Below, in pieces: positions 29,744 to 62,376 of a stretch of 64,000 bases of DNA. Origin of the DNA: Oceaniglobus ichthyenteri (GTDB lineage: Bacteria > Pseudomonadota > Alphaproteobacteria > Rhodobacterales > Rhodobacteraceae); assembly GCF_003057885.1 (NCBI RefSeq), contig NZ_QAGK01000012.1, positions 1-64,000 on the forward strand, given 5' to 3'. Each line of letters opens with the position of its first letter. The stretch's first letter is position 1. Made by a program: the position numbers and the translations under genes. The notes under the pieces were generated by a model, which saw nothing but the letters and a program-made list of their open reading frames with translations, was not told the origin of the DNA and did not search any database.

Positions 29744-30856
29744 TCAGTAAACAACAACCGCGCGAATGCTTTTACCTTCGTGCATCAGGTCAAACCCTTT
29801 GTTGATGTCGTCCAACCCCATGGTGTGGGTGATCATCGGGTCAATCTCGATTTTTCCGTCCATGTACCAATCAACGATTTTTGGTACATCTGTCCGGCCT
29901 CGCGCGCCGCCAAACGCGGTGCCGCGCCAGGATCGCCCCGTTACCAATTGAAACGGCCGGGTCGAAATTTCGGCACCTGCGGGCGCAACGCCGATGATGA
30001 TGGATTCGCCCCAGCCTTTGTGCGACGATTCCAATGCGGTGCGCATCACATCCACATTGCCGGTGGCATCGAACGTGTAATCGGCCCCACCGCGGGTGAG
30101 TTCGACCAGATGCCCCACCAGATCGCCTTTGACCTCGGATGGATTGACGAAATCGGTCATGCCGAACCGGCGTGCCATGTCAACCTTGCTAGGGTTCAGA
30201 TCGACGCCGACGATCTGATCGGCCCCGGCCAGGCGCAAGCCCTGAATCACGTTCAATCCGATTCCGCCAAGCCCGAAGACAATGGCGCGGCTGCCGATTT
30301 CAACCTTGGCGGTATTGATCACCGCGCCGATGCCGGTGGTTACGCCACAGCCGATATAACAGATTTTATCGAATGGTGCATCCTTGCGCACCTTGGCCAG
30401 TGCGATTTCAGGCAGAACCGTATGGTTGGCAAAGGTGGAACAGCCCATGTAATGCAGGATCGGCGTACCATCCAGCATGGAAAACCGCGATGTTCCATCG
30501 GGCATCACACCGGCCCCTTGGGTGGTGCGGATCGATTGGCAGAGGTTGGTTTTCGGGTTCAGACAGTATTCGCAAGTCCGACATTCGGGCGTATAAAGCG
30601 GGATCACATGATCGCCTGGCACCAGGCTGGTCACGCCTTCGCCCACCTCAAGCACGACGCCGGCACCCTCATGGCCAAGAATCGCGGGAAACGCGCCTTC
30701 GGGGTCGGCACCGGATCGGGTGAATTCATCGGTATGGCAAAGGCCGGTGGCCTTGATTTCTACCAAAACCTCTCCGGCGCGGGGGCCATCGAGGTTGACC
30801 TCCATAACTTCAAGCGGTTTTCCGGCCTCTAATGCAACGGCAGCACGGGTTCTCAT
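29744..30856 (-). CDS. frmA: S-(hydroxymethyl)glutathione dehydrogenase (class III alcohol dehydrogenase)
   Basis: This 370-residue zinc enzyme oxidises the glutathione adduct of formaldehyde. The catalytic zinc ligands are in [14 protein letters not shown] and [10 protein letters not shown]. The structural zinc loop is [17 protein letters not shown]. The NAD-binding [12 protein letters not shown] is near residue 195. Full length, ending in IRAVVVY. It detoxifies formaldehyde from methylated compounds. The GSH-adduct-forming and S-formylglutathione hydrolase genes are not in view. Confidence 0.93.
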
Positions 30857-31184: not shown

Positions 31185-31619
31185 TTATTTCTTCAGACGG
31201 TAATCTTCGTGGCAGGCTTTGCAGGCCCCGCCGATCTGGCCCATCGCGGCGCCCAGCGTCGCGGTATCGGTCGCGTCCATTGCGGATTTTGCGGCAACTT
31301 CCAACGCCATGGCTTTGTCTTTGAAATCATCGAAGTTTTCCCAGATTGCGGGCAGTGCTTCGGATTTTTCGGTCATTTCATTGGCTTCAAATTTGGCGGG
31401 AATCTGTTGCGCGTCCGCATGCAGCGCAGATGCGGCAGCCTGAACCGCGTCAGCATCAAAATCGGCTTTTGCAATTGTGCCAAGGATCTTGGTCTGTGCG
31501 CCAACGTCCTTCATCAATTCCATCCGCGCCGCCACCGGATCGGCGTGAGATTCGGCAAATGCCTGGGGCACCGTGGCGACAACGCCCAGGGCGATGAGGG
31601 CTGCAAGTGTCGATTTCAT
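31185..31619 (-). CDS. Cytochrome c' family protein
   Basis: This 144-residue protein has a signal peptide (MKSTLAALIALGVVATVPQA, cleaved near FAESHA). The heme motif CKACH sits at the C-terminus (ACKACHEDYRLKK), with a four-helix-bundle chain before it (VAARMELMKDVGAQTKILG). These are the hallmarks of class II cytochromes c (c' or c-556). It is periplasmic, and a role in electron transfer or NO binding is inferred. A TGTGATCACA site lies 88 bp upstream of the start. Confidence 0.93.
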   Translation of the reverse strand: MKSTLAALIALGVVATVPQAFAESHADPVAARMELMKDVGAQTKILGTIAKADFDADAVQAAASALHADAQQIPAKFEANEMTEKSEALPAIWENFDDFKDKAMALEVAAKSAMDATDTATLGAAMGQIGGACKACHEDYRLKK

Positions 31620-31716: not shown

Positions 31717-31730
31717 TTTAAGGGAATTGG

Positions 31731-31797
31731 CCCGGTGCCGTGCATTGGTGGGGGCAATGAAACACGGCACCGGGCAAAGCGATCTGTCGCTCTGCTG
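31731..31797. ncRNA. Two-hairpin element, copy 1 (candidate structured RNA)
   Basis: CCCGGTGCCGTG (31731-31742) pairs perfectly with CACGGCACCGGG (31763-31774). Inside is a second stem CATTG/CAATG with a GTGGGGG loop and an AAA bulge. A second hairpin AGCGA-TCTG-TCGCT follows (31778-31791), then CTG. Copy 2 at 31934 keeps the shape with compensated changes. The region has no gene. Strand and function are unknown. It could equally be a palindromic DNA repeat. Confidence 0.5.
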
Positions 31798-31933
31798 ACC
31801 GTGATACCGGGCAAGGGCGGCAATGACAGGGCGCAAACGGGCAATCGCCAAGGTGATTGCATGGCAAAATTGGGGCAATGGACGATACAGCATGCGCCCC
31901 GGTTCTGTTCAAAGATAAAGGATAAGAACAGGC

Positions 31934-31997
31934 CCCGGTGCTGTGAACTGGGTGGGGGCAAAGTTTACACAGCACCGGGCAAGCGTTGATCGCTCTG
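31934..31997. ncRNA. Two-hairpin element, copy 2 (candidate structured RNA)
   Basis: CCCGGTGCTGTG (31934-31945) pairs perfectly with CACAGCACCGGG (31968-31979). An inner AACT/AGTT stem frames the conserved GGTGGGGGCAA. A following AGCG/CGCT hairpin (31982-31994) and CTCTG match copy 1. The stem pair C-G of copy 1 is T-A here. The rest of the 432-bp gap (31620-32051) holds no gene that I can support. Confidence 0.5.
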
Positions 31998-32051
31998 ACA
32001 CGGTTGTGACAGCCGATTGTGGCGATTTCGCGGAACAATAGGGGGAAAGAG

Positions 32052-32474
32052 ATGATGATTGTGCGGCCAGCGCACCGCAATCTGAACCGCTTGCCTTTGT
32101 GGGGCCAACTGGGCAAGATCGGTGTGATGAACATGCAGCCGCCCACCCCCTTTCCCCAACGCTCGGACCCGAATGATCGGGTGGCGTTTGACCGGCGCGA
32201 ATTGGCGGCGATCCTGACCCTGTATGGGCGCATGGTGGCCGCAGGTGAATGGCGCGACTATGGCATGTCGTTCCTGCGCGATGTGGCGGTGTTTTCTGTT
32301 TTTCGACGTTCGGCGGAAAATCCGATTTACCGGATTGAAAAGCGGCCAAAACTGCGCGGCCGCCAGGGGCAATATGCGGTCATTGCCATGGACGGGCAGA
32401 TTTTGAAGCGTGGCGCAGACCTGCCAACAGTGCTCAGGGTGTTAGAGCGTAAGCTGATCCGCGCTGTGGACTAG
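32052..32474 (+). CDS. DUF2794 family protein
   Basis: This protein of up to 140 residues has the conserved DUF2794 core: VAFDRRELAAILTLYGRMVA, GEWRDYGMSFLRDVAVFSVF, NPIYRIEKRPKL, and the C-terminal RGADLPTVLRVLERKLIRAV. It is found almost only in alphaproteobacteria and has no known function. I use the ATG at 32052 because a GGGGGAAAG ribosome site precedes it. An internal start at 32127 (MNMQPPTPF) matches the length of some relatives. Confidence 0.87.
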   Translation: MMIVRPAHRNLNRLPLWGQLGKIGVMNMQPPTPFPQRSDPNDRVAFDRRELAAILTLYGRMVAAGEWRDYGMSFLRDVAVFSVFRRSAENPIYRIEKRPKLRGRQGQYAVIAMDGQILKRGADLPTVLRVLERKLIRAVD

Positions 32475-62331: not shown

Positions 62332-62376
62332 GCCGGGTCTGTCAGGGTGGGGGCATAAATCCAGGGGACACACGGG

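Follow-up and report, generated by a model that had tools for sequence, protein, structure and literature searches.

The locus and its paired hairpins

The stretch of DNA analysed here (the window) comprises 64,000 nucleotides of Oceaniglobus ichthyenteri contig NZ_QAGK01000012.1 and contains a pair of hairpin elements in an intergenic region, which is bordered on one side by a gene for cytochrome c' (PF01322; 31185..31619, minus strand, with its start at 31619) and on the other by a divergent gene for a DUF2794 protein (PF10984; 32127..32474, plus strand, with its most likely ATG at 32127). On the minus strand, copy 1 lies at 31723..31796 and copy 2 at 31926..31999, matching the covariance model R2 with 72.6 bits (E 2e-14) and 60.7 bits (E 2e-11), respectively. 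The spacing between the copies is 204-205 bp, and no recognised gene overlaps either of them, as the first-pass annotation had already stated. Near cytochrome c' there is a zinc-dependent gene (29744-30856, minus strand) resembling glutathione-dependent formaldehyde dehydrogenase, and this neighbourhood recurs at several of the loci termed T1 below. Elsewhere in the window there is a SAM/SAH riboswitch aptamer (RF01727; 56103-56151, plus strand, 53.7 bits).

Read on the minus strand, each copy consists of a short 5' hairpin (HP2) followed by a main hairpin (HP1) of 12-14 bp, whose C-rich loop, AGCCCCCACCCAGU, is almost invariant in the family. For copy 1, HP2 (31774..31795, minus strand, placed from the fold) reads GCAGAGCGA-CAGA-UCGCUUUGC, and HP1 (31730..31773, minus strand) has the stem arms CCCGGTGCCGTG and CACGGCACCGGG, which lie within 31727-31742 and 31763-31778, and the conserved C-rich sequence in its loop as GCCCCCACC, equivalent to plus-strand GGTGGGGGC, at 31747-31755. 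For copy 2, the 5' hairpin (31982..31994, minus strand) is formed by AGCG and CGCT, and HP1 (31934..31979, minus strand) has the fully complementary (100%) arms CCCGGTGCTGTG and CACAGCACCGGG at 31934-31945 and 31968-31979, with the loop sequence GCCCCCACCC, or GGGTGGGGGC on the plus strand, at 31950-31959. A shared core, GGTGGGGGCAA, is located at 31747 in copy 1 and at 31951 in copy 2. On both strands, each copy folds better than its dinucleotide-shuffled versions (z from -2.6 to -5.9), and no more than 1 shuffle in 200 reaches an equally good fold. The duplicated element described in the first-pass annotation is thus real in its particulars, including the stems, the core, the small AGCG/CGCT hairpin with CTCTG after it and the exchange of a C-G pair for T-A between the copies.

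Distribution and genomic setting

When the DNA of relatives was searched, the element turned up ahead of DUF2794 both within the genus and further afield. A first covariance model (R1), built from nine sequences, matched 271 of the 395 genomes scanned in the taxonomic family. With the improved model R2, matches extend to 304 of 396 genomes of the Rhodobacteraceae (GTDB) and to 278 of 352 genera, with one to three copies in each genome, and in a class sample of 387 alphaproteobacterial genomes none is found among the roughly 380 outside the Rhodobacteraceae. A degenerate pattern of the core was also run over a 257 Gb GTDB collection, where, among the records listed, all are Rhodobacterales or MAGs placed there, bar one labelled only 'Proteobacteria bacterium'; loci selected by this pattern carry the core by construction, whereas those selected by the model do not. 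No plasmid copies of the element were seen. In these genome surveys the predicted sRNA family is restricted to the sampled Rhodobacteraceae (GTDB). The earlier remark that no known RNA family has this pattern holds for Rfam 15, since neither the window's element nor 20 related loci score above the gathering threshold of any family there. The RNA is therefore uncatalogued in Rfam 15, yet it may be among the unnamed sRNAs of RNA-seq studies of Paracoccus, Ruegeria or R. sphaeroides.

The elements occupy two genomic settings. Among 159 elements, 47 are beside DUF2794 (T1), 109 are between ggt and rbaW/rbaV (T2) and 3 are unassigned, such that every member with a readable neighbourhood is either on the DUF2794 side, as in the window, or between rbaVW and ggt. 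At its T1 locus the window has two copies in tandem, and with one further copy on contig 37 its genome has three in all. In two genomes (L026 and L038) the order ggt-T2-T1-DUF2794 is found side by side, which is taken as the ancestral arrangement. Tandem duplications of two to three adjacent copies, of the T2 type in those with a readable context, are seen in L016, L012, L028 and L107, and in G341 at C11:408889-409384; their presence in several genera indicates that tandem amplification happened more than once. Together, the family-wide conservation and the two paralogous loci strongly support one of the possibilities raised in the first-pass annotation, that of tandem or paired small RNAs.

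Conservation of structure and loop

The extent to which selection has acted upon the structure can be judged from an alignment of 34 diverse sequences. Within HP1, pairing is kept in 97% of cells, and both partners have changed at 10 of the 14 pairs. The whole structure has 75 doubly changed cells where shuffles have 26, and 0 of 500 shuffles reach that number. All covariation measures in this alignment exceed those of 500 shuffles and of all slid controls. The pairing of HP2 is weaker (67% of cells), partly through misalignment of T1 against T2 sequences; the small hairpin reads AGCUGCAUAUGGCU in T2 and UAGCG....CGCUA in T1. Selection on structure, which had been proposed from the two copies of the window, is thereby strongly supported. 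The inner stem that was described with it is, however, not conserved in the family and its place is taken by a large loop of conserved sequence. This loop has 20 nt with the consensus UUAACAGCCCCCACCCAGU, within which AGCCCCCACCCAG is nearly invariant, and AGCCCCCACCCAGU varies little across the 34 aligned members. A small ORF within the hairpin was considered and rejected, since the reading frames shift between species because the loop length varies.

Strand and ends of the predicted RNA

The strand can be read from the non-Watson-Crick positions of 109 distinct stems. Written as plus strand, 96 of these positions are A-C or C-A and 11 are G-T or T-G. As an A-C mismatch on one strand is a G-U pair on the other, the RNA corresponds to the window's minus strand. 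Terminators support this strand independently: a strong hairpin and T-run follow shortly after the main hairpin on the RNA strand in 28 of 44 T1 loci, and in 0 of 44 after shuffling. The plus-strand reading implied by the first-pass annotation is accordingly wrong, and on the minus strand the small hairpin becomes the 5' one, with the 'CTCTG' at or before the RNA start.

The opposite arrangement is a plus-strand RNA, or a 5' leader of the DUF2794 mRNA, in which the G-rich loop is paired with CCCACCCCC at the start of the ORF. This would be in keeping with the position of the element just upstream of that gene on the same strand and with the complementarity to the ORF start in several genomes of the genus. 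It is nevertheless contradicted by the wobble ratio, by a terminator and an operator that are both on the other strand and by the T2 copies, which are not near DUF2794. It is also at odds with the predicted DUF2794 promoter (32091..32119, plus strand; TTGCCT-N17-CAAGAT), which ends 7 nt before the ATG at 32127 and has the family consensus TTGATT-N17-CANNNT, ending about 6 nt before the ATG in the alignment. From the predicted position of this promoter the DUF2794 mRNA is apparently near-leaderless across the family, which puts the element outside its 5' UTR. The plus-strand reading is largely refuted and retains only a very slight probability. Equally improbable is an element without RNA function, either a DNA repeat of palindromic form or a cruciform bound by protein, which would explain perfect inverted repeats in intergenic DNA but not the low copy number (one to three per genome, and three in that of the window), the two fixed loci, the strand-specific wobble pairs or the conserved loop and promoter; the palindromic repeat family suggested in the first-pass annotation is rejected on the same copy numbers, fixed loci and strand-specific G-U pairs.

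A further alternative is that the hairpins are cis-regulatory leaders of mRNAs, in T2 for ggt and in T1 for whichever gene is downstream, which in the window is cytochrome c', the first gene to follow copy 1 in the direction of the RNA. T2 indeed always precedes ggt by about 100 nt, shares its strand and lacks a terminator, and no clear intrinsic terminator was found at the T2 copies or at the two copies in the window. Against this, the T1 loci have the terminators described above and their downstream genes vary, with cytochrome c' an inconstant neighbour across the family, and in 53 of 76 T2 loci (3 in shuffles) a sigma-70-like promoter for ggt itself follows the hairpin. The leader explanation is consequently improbable, although clearly less so than the plus-strand RNA or the DNA repeat. 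What is found for the minus-strand element is what is expected of a trans-encoded sRNA, namely its own predicted promoter, a conserved structure and a position outside genes, with its own terminator for T1 only.

The control region

ChvG-ChvI is a conserved alphaproteobacterial two-component system associated with envelope and acid stress. Upstream of copy 1, GCC half-sites recur every 11 bp (31819..31876, minus strand). This array represents a putative ChvI operator/promoter and appears on the plus strand as GGC at 31819, GGC at 31830, GGT at 31852, GGC at 31863 and GGC at 31874. A weaker putative operator of phased half-sites precedes copy 2 (32021..32067, minus strand), with GGC at 32021, GGA at 32032, GGG at 32043 and GGC at 32065 on the plus strand. 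Thus, five of six half-sites are in phase at copy 1 and four of five at copy 2. The same periodicity is apparent in the family, where plus-strand guanines recur every 11 bp past the small hairpin, at 26, 37, 48, 59, 70 and 81 in T1 and at 26, 37, 48 and 59 in T2. Across 40 T1 upstream regions there are 39 GCC pairs at spacing 11 (GCC-N8-GCC), where other spacings have 2-14 and shuffled sequences 4.4, and the 103 T2 loci have 55 pairs against 7.6. Counted by upstream region, the motif is present in 34 of 40 for T1 and 48 of 103 for T2 (shuffles 4.4 and 7.2), and there is no comparable excess on the opposite strand of these T1 and T2 upstream regions. Closer to the RNA, a -10-like CATA or CAAA precedes the small hairpin (at about -14 to -9) and a conserved -35 is absent, a combination that would fit an activator-dependent promoter.

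The motif equals the S. meliloti ChvI consensus, N-GCC-N8-GCC, as cited from Ratib 2018 in PMC9731502. The genome of the window has a chvI-chvG-hprK-rapZ locus. Its chvI promoter has no obvious GCC array and GCC triplets are barely above control genome-wide (234 against 178), and so ChvI is named as the regulator from the motif alone; the use of genome-wide GCC arrays as a test of a ChvI regulon was abandoned, the arrays being mostly coding noise.

Could the same stand-alone minus-strand sRNA instead be activated by another OmpR-type response regulator reading GCC-N8-GCC? Direct repeats at 10-11 bp are bound by many OmpR-family regulators, and known ChvI-type targets did not stand out in the genome-wide scan, both of which leave some room for this. 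It is nonetheless unlikely, at perhaps the level of a serious outside chance, given the identity of the motif with the published consensus as cited. CenR was considered as one such regulator and rejected, for the R. sphaeroides CenR motif, TGA-N8-TGA, does not match the GCC-N8-GCC found here.

Relation to known sRNAs

By analogy, the RNA would be comparable in role to ChvR and in form to the rhizobial EcpR1. ChvR of Caulobacter crescentus is a stand-alone sRNA under ChvI-ChvG that pairs with its target via stem-loops, is reported to be specific to C. crescentus and has its gene by recF/gyrB (PMC6237742). The Rhodobacterales sRNA is alike in its stand-alone form, with ChvI control here suggested by the operator, but it is set apart by the description of ChvR as confined to C. 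crescentus, whereas the present family extends across Rhodobacterales genera. In the Rhizobiales, EcpR1 (SmrC10, SmelC291) has a conserved GC-rich loop that pairs near start codons (PMC4414408). The likeness extends to a length of about 100 nt, two stem-loops, the strong conservation of the GC-rich loop, an intrinsic terminator, order-wide conservation and conserved synteny (PMC4414408). Yet the SL1 loop of EcpR1 is UCCGCCGCAUCU and not the AGCCCCCACCCAGU of the 34 aligned members, and EcpR1 lies downstream of divK-pleD rather than next to DUF2794 or rbaVW/ggt. The best relevant weak match in Rfam was to Atu_C10, at 21 bits for copy 1 where 60 are needed, with none listed in the 20 other loci. 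This family (RF02497) is, to judge by its name, presumably the Agrobacterium homologue of EcpR1. Identity with EcpR1/Atu_C10 was rejected, as loop and locus both differ.

Closer in taxonomy are the CcsR1-4 'cuckoo' RNAs of R. sphaeroides, which are homologous tandem sRNAs from the same order. The CcsR RNAs have C-rich loops and carry the motif CCUCCUCCC. They are, however, co-transcribed with ccaF1, and both their loci and their loop differ from those of the present family. UpsM and StsR of R. sphaeroides are likewise conserved Rhodobacteraceae sRNAs but are distinguished by locus and inferred control, UpsM being the dcw/mraZ leader and StsR being RpoHI/HII-dependent. The main texts on UpsM, StsR and other R. 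sphaeroides sRNAs have no locus or sequence link to the element, and those accompanying the sRNA lists of P. denitrificans and R. pomeroyi have no sequence or neighbour information for the T1 or T2 loci.

Proposed function and significance

The explanation that best accommodates these features, and one that is reasonably probable, is a stand-alone minus-strand sRNA, probably activated by ChvI, whose loop pairs with and represses mRNAs, the two copies in the window being two tandem genes. Each gene (31723-31796 and 31926-31999) would yield an RNA of ~80-130 nt, with phosphorylated ChvI, as the motif suggests, binding the GCC array and activating a promoter whose start is near the 5' hairpin. 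The rigid main hairpin would then present the near-invariant C-rich loop for pairing with G-rich stretches near the ribosome-binding sites of target mRNAs, leading to their repression. The probable induction by stress, the invariant C-rich loop on a rigid stem, the T1 terminators and the two loci are most simply accounted for by such a loop-pairing, trans-acting repressor.

In the genome of the window, GGGTGGGGG, which is complementary to the loop, is not enriched (78 against 81 for the reversed pattern), and only one promising intergenic site was seen. A possible target is marked by GGGTGGGGGCATAA at 62346-62354 (plus strand), complementary to the sRNA loop and 32 nt before the ATG of an ORF that starts MQTDRTDLEGLATPALVLDTAKM and resembles an enzyme of the D-threonine aldolase/alanine racemase type.

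Among model Rhodobacterales few sRNAs have a known regulator and the outputs of ChvG-ChvI are little studied. More tentatively, and with rather less confidence than the sRNA itself, the family may be under direct ChvG-ChvI control and would then be the first sRNA family of such wide conservation to be so. It would be a Rhodobacterales counterpart of the sigma-E sRNAs MicA and RybB, with an envelope-stress two-component system using paired paralogous C-loop RNAs to shut down envelope mRNAs across the order. A covariance model would be supplied for an uncatalogued family that is abundant in marine bacteria, and an order-wide sRNA family supported by its structure gains a strand, a predicted start, a loop and a likely regulator that can be tested in model Rhodobacterales.
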